Source: Methanobrevibacter olleyae (GTDB lineage Archaea > Methanobacteriota > Methanobacteria > Methanobacteriales > Methanobacteriaceae). From it: DNA of 32,581 nt. Positions 24,057 through 27,882 of this stretch are shown in pieces. The notes beneath the pieces were generated by a model, which ran no database searches, was not told where the DNA came from, and saw only the letters and a program-made list of their open reading frames with translations. The translations under genes and the position numbers were made by a program. Each line of letters starts with the position of its first letter. The stretch's first letter is position 1. The stretch lies in the NCBI GenBank assembly GCA_015063035.1, contig SUTG01000019.1, positions 1 to 32,581 on the forward strand, in the 5' to 3' direction.

Positions 24057-24584
24057 TTATTCAGCGAAAAATGGGGCCATTTCCTTTAAAGCCAATTGGA
24101 TACTTGATTTTTCACCGTACAATGCAATTGTTGAATCAGTGTCAAATTCCATTATAAGCCCATAATATTCAGCTATTTCCTGTATTCTATCTTCTGCAAT
24201 TGGATTTCTTAAAGTAATCTTTGCATATGATAATCCCGGAGGAACATTTTGAATGAATCTGGATTGGGTGTCTGAAATCTTAAAGATCTCTTCTCCCCTA
24301 TTTGCTCTTTGAAGCTTATCCAACCATTCCTCATAAAATTCCTTGTCATAACTTTCTGCAAGAGAGAGCAATACTCCTTGAATCTCATTTAAGGACATAT
24401 CTGCTTTAGCCATCTCATTGATCATATCCGGATGGGAAGGGTCTTTCTTGTAAAACCCAATTTGAGATTTGACCAAACCTAAATCCTTATTCAATTCCTT
24501 TGGGATTGGAATTCCTTTCTTGTGCAATTCTGAAGAAAGGTTAGCCATAACCAACCAGGATTGTTCTATAGGCAATGTACTCAT
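24057..24584 (-). CDS. DUF2096-like methanogen protein
   Basis: A 175-residue soluble protein, unknown function. It begins with a helical segment (LPIEQSWLVMANLSSELHKK), has a Lys/Glu-rich middle (about 55-115) and ends with an alpha/beta segment (ITLRNPIAEDRIQEIAEYYG, then LYGEKSSIQLALKEM). From memory this resembles DUF2096, a family confined to methanogens; I cannot verify it here. The ATG overlaps the upstream gene's stop by four bases (ATGA), so translation is coupled. No catalytic motif or membrane segment is visible. Confidence 0.72.
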   Translation of the reverse strand: MSTLPIEQSWLVMANLSSELHKKGIPIPKELNKDLGLVKSQIGFYKKDPSHPDMINEMAKADMSLNEIQGVLLSLAESYDKEFYEEWLDKLQRANRGEEIFKISDTQSRFIQNVPPGLSYAKITLRNPIAEDRIQEIAEYYGLIMEFDTDSTIALYGEKSSIQLALKEMAPFFAE

Positions 24585-24850
24585 AAATGTCCTTCCAATA
24601 TTTTTAAGGTAGTAACATTAACTTTTGCGTCTGCTTCTCTTAACTCTCTTTTGATTTCATTAAGGTTATTGTATTTATCTAAAAAGAGGACATGGTGACT
24701 ACCGGTACCGGTAATGTCTAAAATAGCGATTTCATCTTGATCATCAATTTCATCTCTACCTTCAATAGCTGCTTTGAATTGTACATAAGGGCCATATTCT
24801 TCAGGAAGGTCTTTAAATTTAAATATTCCACCTAAAATTGCAATAAACAT
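24581..24850 (-). CDS. DUF749-like methanogen protein
   Basis: An 89-residue protein starting MFIAILGGIFKFKDLPEEYG, with FKAAIEGRDEID and LDITGTGSHHVLFLD. It resembles DUF749, a small methanogen-specific family with known fold but no assigned function; this is recall. The start has GGAGA nine bases upstream. Its stop overlaps the start of the DUF2096-like gene (ATGA), forming a two-gene unit. The short hydrophobic start (FIAILGGIF) looks more like a beta-strand than a membrane anchor. Confidence 0.7.
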   Translation of the reverse strand: MFIAILGGIFKFKDLPEEYGPYVQFKAAIEGRDEIDDQDEIAILDITGTGSHHVLFLDKYNNLNEIKRELREADAKVNVTTLKILEGHL

Positions 24851-25191: not shown

Positions 25192-25195
25192 TTAT
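25172..25195 (-). terminator. hdrB terminator hairpin spanning the stop codon
   Basis: ATAAGTAGT (25172-25180) / ACTACTTAT (25187-25195); the stem includes the hdrB stop codon (25192-25194). On the minus strand it is followed by CATTTTCTTTTTTTTT. The same layout is seen at the metallophosphoesterase gene. Confidence 0.7.
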
Positions 25196-26076
25196 GCTAA
25201 TTTTTCGAGAACTGGGGTTGCATCGATTAATTGTGCATCGAAAGTTAATTCATCTGCGCTTAATCCCATAGCTAATCCGTATAATTGAGCTAAGTGCATT
25301 ACAGGGAATGCGAAGTCAGTTCCGTATTTTGCGTTTACTTCAGTTTGACCTACATCGAATTGTAAGTGACAGAATGGGCAAACTTCTACAATAGCGTCTA
25401 CACCAGCTTCAGCCATAGCGTCGAGTTTTTCTTTGGTGTAACTTAAGGTTACGTCAATATCTCTAGCTCTTAAACCTCCACCTGCACCACAGCACATCAT
25501 TTTGTTTTTGTATGGTACGGATTTAGCACCAGTGATCTCAACTAATTCATCTAAGATGGTTGGGTTTTCTGCAGATTCTTCAATACCTACTTCTGCGGTA
25601 GGTTTTAAGAAGTGGCATCCATAGTGTACAGCTACATTAATACCTAAGTCTTTGGTGAACATTTCAGATAATTTGTCAAGACCGACATCGTTGTATAAAA
25701 TTTCTGCCATGTGTCTTACTTTGGTTTCACCTTTGTATTGTTTGTCAGTGGTTTCAGCTAAAATAGCGTTGATTTCTTCTTTTTTAGCTGGGTTTTCTTT
25801 TAATAAGTGGTCACATTCACGTAAGGAACCGAAACAACCGTTACATTCGGTCATAATTTCTGCACCCATTTCTTCTGCAATAGCGAGGTTACGTGCTGCA
25901 ATAGATGCCCAGGTGGTTTGGTCAAAGGATCCGAATACACCAGGTGCAGGACAACAGGAAGCTCCTTCCATGTCTTTTAATTCAATGTCTAATTTATCGA
26001 ATAAGATTCTGGTTGCTTTTTCGATACCAGGGTAACGGTTGTTCATAATACAACCTAAGAAATATGCAATCTCCAT
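25192..26076 (-). CDS. hdrB: CoB-CoM heterodisulfide reductase subunit B
   Basis: A 294-residue HdrB, the catalytic subunit that reduces the CoM-S-S-CoB heterodisulfide at the end of methanogenesis. It has two CCG domains: Cys9, Cys41-Cys42, Cys78, Cys81 (spacings 31, 35, 2) and Cys154, Cys195-Cys196, Cys233, Cys236 (40, 36, 2), which bind the two non-cubane [4Fe-4S] clusters. Motifs seen include CCPAPGVFGS and MMCCGAGGGLRARD. Length matches HdrB of Methanothermobacter. The ATG at 26076 has AAGGAGT upstream and starts 22 bp after the end of hdrC, so hdrC-hdrB form an operon. HdrA and Mvh genes are not in the window. Soluble complex in the cytoplasm. Confidence 0.97.
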   Translation of the reverse strand: MEIAYFLGCIMNNRYPGIEKATRILFDKLDIELKDMEGASCCPAPGVFGSFDQTTWASIAARNLAIAEEMGAEIMTECNGCFGSLRECDHLLKENPAKKEEINAILAETTDKQYKGETKVRHMAEILYNDVGLDKLSEMFTKDLGINVAVHYGCHFLKPTAEVGIEESAENPTILDELVEITGAKSVPYKNKMMCCGAGGGLRARDIDVTLSYTKEKLDAMAEAGVDAIVEVCPFCHLQFDVGQTEVNAKYGTDFAFPVMHLAQLYGLAMGLSADELTFDAQLIDATPVLEKLA

Positions 26077-26098: not shown

Positions 26099-27052
26099 TT
26101 ATTCTAATTCTCCAGTTTCCATGTTGAAACCGATTAATTTATCGAATTCACATGCTGCACAGATTTTTTGTACTTCTTCTAATGCTTCAGGGAAAGCATG
26201 TACAGTTGGAGGTAATTCGTCAAGTCCAATAGCTTTTCTTAAATCTTTGGTTTTGTCGTTGATTGGTACACCGTGACCGAATTTAATTACATAGGAACCA
26301 GTTGCTTTGTGAGCATCTGCCATGTATCCAGCTTTAGCTGCTTCGTTACGTGCCATTTTGATGATGTCTACGATTTTTACACTTCTAGGACATCTTTCTT
26401 GGCAGGTGTAACAGGTGGTACACATCCATAATGCAGGATCAGATACTACTTCTTCTCTGAGTCCTAATAAACATTTTCTTACAATTTGTCTTACTCTGTA
26501 AGGAGTTCTTCTACCAGAAGGACATCCTCCACCACAGGTACCACATTGGAAACAGTGGTCTACAGTTTCAATTCCAGCATCAACGAATTTTTGAGTAAAT
26601 TCTTTATCAATATCATCCATTGAATATATATCGTTTTCTTTTAATAAAGTCATATTATCGCTCTCTTCATTTTCTTCTGAAGCTTCTTCTTCAACTGCCA
26701 CTTCAACAGCTTCTTCAGGAGCTTCATCTTCTGAAAGTTTATCATCAATTGATTCTTCCTCATTATCTAAAGAAACTTCCTCTTCAGGAACCTCTTCAAC
26801 TGCTTCTTCAACAGCTTCTTCTTCAACAGGAGCCTCTTCAGCTTCAACTTCTTCCTCAGCTTCAGCTACTTCTTCAGCAACTTCTTCTTCAGAAATAGTT
26901 TCAGAATCAGATTTTGTTTCAATTTCCTCTTCTGAAGATGTCTGTATAGCATCAGCAGCTTCTTCAACAGACTCTGCTTCTTTAGATAAATTCTCTTCTA
27001 TATCTTTATTTGCCCTACCTATGAGGGATTTAAGAGTATCTAACACAGACAT
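26099..27052 (-). CDS. hdrC: CoB-CoM heterodisulfide reductase subunit C with acidic N-terminal extension
   Basis: A 317-residue protein whose C-terminal 184 residues are a normal HdrC: starts MTLLKENDIY at Met134, cluster motifs CFQCGTCGGGC (Cys167, 170, 173, 177) and CTTCYTCQERC (Cys211, 214, 217, 221), then HGVPINDKTKDLRKAIGL and the end METGELE, all as in Methanothermobacter HdrC. It relays electrons from HdrA to HdrB. Residues 1-133 are extra: a helical start (MSVLDTLKSLIGRANKDIEE) then about 100 residues dominated by Glu, Val, Ala and Ser, probably disordered. The ATG at 27052 has AGGTG nine bases upstream. The internal ATG at 26653 lacks a good ribosome-binding site. A TATA box and a palindrome lie upstream. 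Confidence 0.95.
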   Translation of the reverse strand: MSVLDTLKSLIGRANKDIEENLSKEAESVEEAADAIQTSSEEEIETKSDSETISEEEVAEEVAEAEEEVEAEEAPVEEEAVEEAVEEVPEEEVSLDNEEESIDDKLSEDEAPEEAVEVAVEEEASEENEESDNMTLLKENDIYSMDDIDKEFTQKFVDAGIETVDHCFQCGTCGGGCPSGRRTPYRVRQIVRKCLLGLREEVVSDPALWMCTTCYTCQERCPRSVKIVDIIKMARNEAAKAGYMADAHKATGSYVIKFGHGVPINDKTKDLRKAIGLDELPPTVHAFPEALEEVQKICAACEFDKLIGFNMETGELE

Positions 27053-27077
27053 TGAAAAACACACCTAGGACAATCAT
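27030..27077 (-). other. 15-codon upstream ORF overlapping hdrC start
   Basis: ATG at 27077 preceded by GAGGTAA at good spacing opens a 15-residue frame (MIVLGVFFNVCVRYS) that ends with TAA at 27030, out of frame with hdrC and overlapping its first 23 bases. Its ribosome-binding site is at least as good as that of hdrC. Confidence 0.35.
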
Positions 27078-27115
27078 AGGTTTACCTCACGTCCTTAATT
27101 ATAATTTTATTAGAA

Positions 27116-27127
27116 TAGTATATAAAG
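27116..27127 (-). promoter_or_regulatory. hdrC TATA box
   Basis: CTTTATATACTA on the minus strand with an A-rich element before it. It predicts transcription from about 27097 and a leader of about 45 bases to the hdrC ATG. Confidence 0.65.
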
Positions 27128-27438: not shown

Positions 27439-27882
27439 TTAGGATAAGATATCAACCGAATTATCGGAAAGCCTTTTCAAAGTTTTTGAAAATGATTTCA
27501 TTTCATCTGCAGGAATATCTCCTAAGGTTGCATTTTTCCATTGATCGAATATGTCAAGCAAAATTTGACAAACTTCTTTTCCATCTTCAGTCAATAACAA
27601 TATCTTTTTGGTATTGTTTTCAGCATCAATTGTTTTAGTGATGAATCCTTTAATCAATAGGTTTTTAGTGGTTTTACTGATGTTAGCTTCAGTCACATGG
27701 AATCTTCTTACAAGATCGATTTGATTGAGACCTTCGTTTGCATAAATTTCCAATAGAATTGGTATTTCCCCAATGTTTATATCAATATTTTCCATGTTTT
27801 TTCTAAAAAACATTTCATAGCTTTTCAATAAGTTCATCAAATAATTTACATGTTCCGGGATAATTGTCTCATTTACATTCAT
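27439..27882 (-). CDS. MarR-family transcriptional regulator
   Basis: A 147-residue MarR-type winged-helix regulator. A dimerisation helix comes first (HVNYLMNLLKSYEMFFRKNM), then the winged helix at about 45-110: LNQIDLVRRFHVTEANISKT as the recognition region, LLIKGFITKTIDAENNTKKI as the wing and LLTEDGKE, the typical MarR C-terminal motif. The start at 27882 is chosen over a frame start at 27912 because AAGGAGG lies eight bases upstream. Such dimers bind palindromes and respond to small molecules or oxidation. The gene lies upstream of hdrC on the same strand, separated by an array, palindrome and promoter. The target is unknown. Confidence 0.88.
   Translation of the reverse strand: MNVNETIIPEHVNYLMNLLKSYEMFFRKNMENIDINIGEIPILLEIYANEGLNQIDLVRRFHVTEANISKTTKNLLIKGFITKTIDAENNTKKILLLTEDGKEVCQILLDIFDQWKNATLGDIPADEMKSFSKTLKRLSDNSVDILS

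Follow-up and report, generated by a model that had tools for sequence, protein, structure and literature searches.

Does the hdrC gene of Methanobrevibacter olleyae encode more than the classical HdrC subunit, and what might the additional part do? In methanogens of the rumen and gut, HdrABC regenerates the thiols of the final step of methane formation and drives the reduction of CO2. In the DNA analysed here (contig SUTG01000019.1, 32,581 nucleotides; hereafter the window), hdrC is a single open frame on the (-) strand (26099..27052) running from the ATG at 27052 to the stop codon at 26099-26101, and its 317-residue product has 133 residues in front of a core that begins with MTLL, residues 134-317 corresponding to a normal HdrC. 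The open N-terminal extension of a preliminary description was thus confirmed, as was its ribosome-binding site, the Shine-Dalgarno sequence AGGTGTG (27060..27066, (-)), which lies 7 nt 5' of the ATG at 27052 and pairs at -6.3 kcal/mol. The assignment of the C-terminal part to HdrC also held, because TIGR03290 (HdrC) matched residues 165-307 with 236.6 bits against a curated cut-off of 160, and the core (26102..26653, (-)) was 70% identical to Methanothermobacter-type HdrC. The core contains two CX2CX2CX3C cluster motifs, the cysteines of which were invariant in a 10-sequence core alignment and a 44-sequence alignment. hdrB (25192..26076, (-); TIGR03288, 482.8 bits) lies directly 3' of hdrC. 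Just 5' of hdrC, on the same strand, is a MarR-family regulator (27439-27882, (-); PF01047), whose closest NCBIfam model is BilQ at a score under the BilQ cut-off. Past hdrB lie DUF2096 and DUF749 genes (24057-24850, (-)), with similar sequences 3' of hdrB also in loci L110 and L087; judged by these similarities, they form a conserved neighbourhood of unassigned function.

According to the preliminary description, the classical HdrC lacks an extension of this kind, a claim that fails since Methanothermobacter-type genomes carry the extension as well. We sampled 150 genomes of the order, 138 of them from the family, and found TIGR03290 matches in all 150, above the curated cut-off in 124. From these, 120 hdrC loci were extracted, 117 of which were complete at the 5' end (left out were g10, represented by a single genome, and several loci that are truncated). 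An in-frame, stop-free extension of 71-202 codons including the N-terminal helix was present in 102 of the 117 complete Methanobacteriales loci, a count in which many loci are close relatives and not independent events, and it occurred in 18 of the 18 genera examined, in three families of Methanobacteriales. Alignment with other hdrC genes, the check originally proposed, thus indicated that the extension is not special to Methanobrevibacter. In a wider record set the motif was found in 150 of 192 usable records, though we prefer 102/117 because the wider set holds named duplicates of the same contigs. The extension was absent from all 17 usable HdrC records outside Methanobacteriales and appears to be ancestral in that order. 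An assembly frameshift joining two genes, named beforehand as a possible origin of the long frame, was ruled out by the common uninterrupted frame of the 102 loci from many assemblies. The suggestion of a fused small acidic protein, or of a paralogue, was rejected as far as it was testable, because no homologue of the extension was found elsewhere in the window's genome at E<=10. Outside subscription journals, we found no report on an N-terminal extension of HdrC in Methanobrevibacter or on an amphipathic HdrC.

The 15 loci without the extension comprised 13 of the 14 loci of g12, which is Methanosphaera according to named records, one g3 genome, and one g9 genome. The lack was genuine and not due to a frameshift in genomes G002 and G096, for which all three frames were inspected, and the g3 and g9 genomes read as clean losses. 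Because g12 mostly lives without the extension and two further genomes lost it, the extension is dispensable. The remaining g12 locus (L013, genome G119) has an extension of helix and linker, MKIFRYLKKLISG..., in which the linker is rich in lysine. An extended hdrC of the Methanobrevibacter type was also present in L177, a public record under the title Bacillales bacterium, and this bin is probably contaminated; similarly, genome G057 contains two different hdrC genes (L052 and L112).

How does this agree with the HdrC known from structures? The HdrC core of locus L122 was letter-identical to the HdrC chain of PDB 8rvu (chain c) and of seven other entries, a chain that we take to be from M. 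marburgensis on the basis of a 2025 paper, the PDB table giving the molecule only. The deposited chain is 185 residues long and begins at MTLL, whereas L122 has a 132-residue in-frame extension, MSVLKRLKEMLMGEKKEE..., upstream of the core. The classical Methanothermobacter HdrC (PDB 8rvu/8rvy/8rwn, TIGR03290) thus shares with the window the core and its two [4Fe-4S] motifs, but its deposited chain lacks the in-frame upstream part of its own gene. Because the L122 core equals the PDB chain and has the extension upstream, the 185-residue HdrC is, as judged from the sequence, the internal-start product of the same gene or annotated as such. The HdrC that was purified and deposited may accordingly be just one of two products of hdrC.

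The first 13 residues (27014..27052, (-); MSVLDTLKSLIGR) were the conserved part of the extension, with the pattern M-S-(I/V)-(I/L/F)-x-R-L-K-x-(L/M)-(F/L/I)-x-G. Among 102 rows, S2, L7, and K8 were each found in 98, R6 in 86, and G13 in 78; positions 3, 4, 7, 10, and 11 were hydrophobic in all determined rows (one row was masked at 10-13), and the net charge ranged from 0 to +4. With loci grouped by genus or core motif rather than by a formal tree, pN/pS of the first 20 codons was 0.46, 0.33, 0.48, and 0.40 in four Methanobrevibacter-type groups and 0.04 in g19, and that of the HdrC core was 0.05-0.18. The helix is under purifying selection. Furthermore, all 102 extended loci had anti-Shine-Dalgarno pairing of <= -5 kcal/mol at the long start, and 97 of 101 had a TATA-like box 5' of it, in the window TTTATATA (27119..27126, (-)), for the most part at a distance of 74-90 nt. 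The extension is almost certainly translated. It is highly improbable that the upstream frame is never translated and represents a long leader open by chance; the enzyme as known has the short form and the linker codons evolve nearly neutrally, as such a leader would have it, but the conserved helix, the low pN/pS of its codons, the Shine-Dalgarno sequence of every extended locus, and the lack of any stop or frame break in the 102 loci argue against this explanation.

An AlphaFold (AF2) prediction made with 44 sequences placed a helix at residues 3-33, with pLDDT by tens of 81 (residues 1-10), 69, and 52, and a folded core, and residues 29-129 were predicted to be disordered with pLDDT below 50, in agreement with the short helix followed by a Glu-rich stretch of the preliminary description. 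The linker (residues 14-133; 26654..27013, (-)) had, over residues 15-133 (119 amino acids), 47% D/E, 3% K/R, and a net charge of -52. Over the 102 loci its net charge ranged from -82 to +8 (median -30), and its pN/pS was 0.57-0.93, with 0.04 in the single g18 pair, the alignments being poor and the ratio rough. Based on composition, pN/pS, and pLDDT, the acidic stretch is a fast-evolving, predicted disordered linker. The earlier idea of a tether stands in so far as the design is tether-like, but not in so far as the acid itself was thought to be functional, the linker charge being so variable and the codons near-neutral. Because the basic helix is conserved while linker charge and codons drift, the extension is more likely to be a helical anchor on a spacer than an acidic arm that contacts basic surfaces.

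What, then, might the helix bind? The hydrophobic moment of the HdrC helices was modestly over that of shuffles, a median of 11% of shuffles reaching it. In a moment-plus-charge discriminant for lipid binding, the HdrC helices scored from 0.89 (window) to 2.03 and the M. smithii SepF peptide 0.80, and only this comparison between HdrC and SepF was used, not the literature thresholds. The N-terminal peptide of M. smithii SepF, MGFTDALKRSLGF, is reported to bind small unilamellar vesicles at 43 uM (PMC8178401). SepF of Methanobrevibacter smithii, the membrane anchor of FtsZ, resembles the hdrC product in having a short N-terminal amphipathic helix (M-S/G-F-T-D-x-L-K-x-S-L-G), a flexible linker, and a folded core; however, its core is unrelated to HdrC, and it is for the SepF helix that vesicle binding was measured. 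In the window's genome, SepF has its own gene and starts with MSFTDNLKKSLGF, after which comes an acidic linker; the Pfam scan gave no match to the SepF core domain (PF04472) in the hdrC product. The hdrC product thus has an amphipathic, basic N-terminal helix as in SepF-type anchors, by analogy and not by homology. FtsY (SRP receptor) of the window's genome also has an N-terminal basic helix-like segment, a very Glu-rich stretch, and then a folded domain, but differs from HdrC in both helix sequence and core.

By this analogy, lipid binding of the HdrC helix is rather likely. The Hdr complex is termed cytoplasmic in the part of the literature seen (PMC3087415), and no report on membrane binding of HdrC was found in the literature searched. 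The translated helix may instead dock onto a protein partner, such as a scaffold, Mtr, Eha, or another subunit of the Hdr complex, with the linker as a spacer; a short linear motif that is conserved and carried on a disordered arm fits docking just as well, and lipid binding by itself would not require R6, L7, and K8 to be so fixed. We nevertheless consider docking unlikely, because the conservation is that of a general amphipathic, basic helix whose hydrophobic positions accept different hydrophobic residues, and because the HdrC helix is closely similar to that of SepF from the window's genome.

Is the second start, at Met 134 (26651..26653, (-)), also used? This codon gives the first residue of the classical HdrC of 184-185 amino acids and is preceded by the Shine-Dalgarno-like sequence GAGAGCGAT (26657..26665, (-)), which includes the rare GAG codon at 26663-26665. 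Pairing at the internal start was strong (-7 to -9 kcal/mol) in g2, g5, g12, g13, g14, and g16-g19, and middling (-5.3 kcal/mol) in g4 and g15. Pairing was weak (-2.1 to -4.3 kcal/mol) in g1, in the majority of g9, and in others (most of g6, g7, and g11), and -5 kcal/mol was reached in 33 of 102 loci. In the window's genus it was -4.3 kcal/mol, and 25% of linker positions paired equally well or better. An SD-type trinucleotide was nevertheless present at the right distance from the internal start in 117 of 117 loci versus 17% (1920/11034) of other linker positions. Codon -4, which supplies the G of GAG, was G-ending in 69 of 84 Lys/Glu codons, and the remaining 15 were all AAA, the same number as that of the KGD rows in which a GGA codon follows and gives the Gs. 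In the background, G-ending Lys/Glu codons amounted to 15% in linkers (611/4097) and 6% in cores (173/2930), and at the neighbouring codons -5 and -7 to 1/74 and 0/76, and no Lys/Glu/Gln core column was fixed for G (0/31 in g9-like and 0/29 in g1-like loci). Where codon -4 was Arg (mesophile rows), it was AGG in 4 of 4, compared with 2 of 43 Arg codons of the cores of these loci. The rare G-ending codon at the Shine-Dalgarno core occurred in 12 of 12 g1 loci and 39 of 46 g9-like loci, the other seven being A-ending; these codon and Shine-Dalgarno counts ignore relatedness, and the 12 g1 loci might all reflect a single state passed on by descent. The internal Shine-Dalgarno core is apparently maintained through rare synonymous codons, and we consider that the internal start is probably in use.

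These data bear on two further explanations. Methanobrevibacter might make the long form only, the internal start being a relic, with Methanothermobacter making mainly the short form. The weak pairing in most g1, g6, g7, g9, and g11 loci, compared with g18, g19, g13, and Methanosphaera, is consistent with this, but the retention of G-ending codons in g1 and g9-like loci is not what a pure relic predicts, leaving this explanation credible but on the unlikely side. Alternatively, the long form might be a precursor cleaved near residue 133 into the short subunit, the internal site being no start. For M. marburgensis, the purified subunit is given in its short form, which would suit a precursor, but in Methanosphaera the gene itself begins at the internal Met, behind the same Shine-Dalgarno sequence, and the synonymous-codon bias acts on nucleotides and not on a cleavage site, so that cleavage is very unlikely.

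hdrC thus has two starts in the same frame, both led by a ribosome-binding site, of which the internal one is weak in the window's genus, and the earlier view that translation begins at either 27052 or 26653 is probably wrong, as both starts look maintained. In bacterial genes of the CheA-long/CheA-short type, one frame with two Shine-Dalgarno-led starts gives a long and a short protein, and the present reading of hdrC likewise has a single gene and frame, two led starts, and two products. In the literature searched, no archaeal redox enzyme with a CheA-like dual start was found, and among the matches listed nothing was relevant to an alternative, internal, or dual start of HdrC.

We propose the following scenario for hdrC of Methanobacteriales. 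Transcription would start 5' of the long start and yield one mRNA with two in-frame starts. Translation from 27052 would give an HdrC with the basic amphipathic helix on a disordered spacer (71-202 residues including the helix), and translation from 26653, with its own Shine-Dalgarno sequence, would give the classical soluble HdrC; because the internal Shine-Dalgarno sequence is weak in the window's genus, the long form may dominate there. The helix may rest against the membrane from the cytoplasmic side in a SepF-like manner, holding a fraction of the electron-bifurcating Hdr-hydrogenase complex near Mtr and Eha/Ehb with catalysis unchanged. That the extension is translated, the internal start used, and the helix lipid-binding, all together, is plausible if short of probable. 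Purified preparations would miss the tethered form, because membranes are discarded and the gene is annotated from the internal start.

A further signal lies 3' of the TATA-like box and 5' of the long-start Shine-Dalgarno sequence, where the leader can form the hairpin GGACGUGAGGUAAACCUAUGAUUGUCC (27068..27094, (-)), a k-turn-like element with GA/GA, U.U, and a 3-nt bulge, in the window GGAC-GU-GA-GGU-AA-ACC-UAU-GA-UU-GUCC. A strict k-turn scan detected 55 of 96 distinct leaders, compared with a mean of 12.5 and a maximum of 18 in 40 shuffled sets. Among the 72 of the 96 leaders that were anchored, U.U adjoined the GA pairs in 58, and two-sided changes were found at four pair positions (T-A/C-G, G-C/A-T twice, and A-T/T-A). 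The window's own leader and the Methanothermobacter-type leaders failed the strict scan, the former, we think, owing to its 2-nt inner loop. RNAalifold on a MAFFT alignment of the leaders (55 of the 96 distinct leaders) gave no structure, and Rfam had no such family and no match above gathering score for the leader. The hairpin core pattern occurred only once in the window's genome, at the hdrC leader. On these comparisons, the leader hairpin appears to be a conserved, covarying, k-turn-like element that touches the long-start Shine-Dalgarno sequence.

L7Ae is known to repress translation by binding a k-turn that masks the Shine-Dalgarno sequence (PMC5539422). The hdrC leader is similar to these L7Ae-controlled 5' leaders in that a putative GA/GA k-turn-like hairpin adjoins the Shine-Dalgarno sequence, but the main text of PMC5539422 is without hdr, and the binder of the hdrC leader could be another protein or none. 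Because the hairpin adjoins the long start only, a protein bound to it might depress synthesis of the long form and leave that of the short form untouched, so that the hairpin could selectively reduce the long form. The sequences show the extension and its conservation, purifying selection on the helix, both ribosome-binding signals, and covariation in the leader, whereas the making of both HdrC products, membrane binding, and regulation are inferred. It is a speculative and rather improbable extension of the scenario that in Methanobacteriales the electron-bifurcating enzyme at the centre of hydrogenotrophic methanogenesis exists as two translational isoforms, soluble and membrane-tethered, with their ratio set by an L7Ae-type k-turn switch at the long start. 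If such a switch were true, it would mean conditional placing of the Hdr complex beside sodium-pumping and energy-converting membrane complexes.

HdrABC counts as cytoplasmic in Methanobacteriales, while electron microscopy of M. marburgensis located some of the methane-forming machinery at the membrane, MCR markers there going from 17% to 70% with nickel-depleted, levulinic-acid-treated growth (PMC3596918). A dual-form HdrC would account for a complex that purifies in soluble form but could also be held near membrane complexes, and would fit this reported shift of MCR (PMC3596918). The 2025 nickel-limitation study used the supernatant after ultracentrifugation, which would discard a membrane form of HdrC (PMC12350162). 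A conserved anchor on HdrC would make the membrane placement of methanogenesis enzymes directly testable.

A pattern search of the window's genome for the same protein start gave seven matches, hdrC included. Besides hdrC, five were translated, and one, MGLFDFIKKDKKDKK... (508 codons read), looks like a helix plus charged linker, the others looking unrelated. L217 of the same genome (contig C36, 29240; MGLFDFIKKDKKDKKDKK...) has an amphipathic-looking helix at its start and a highly charged linker.
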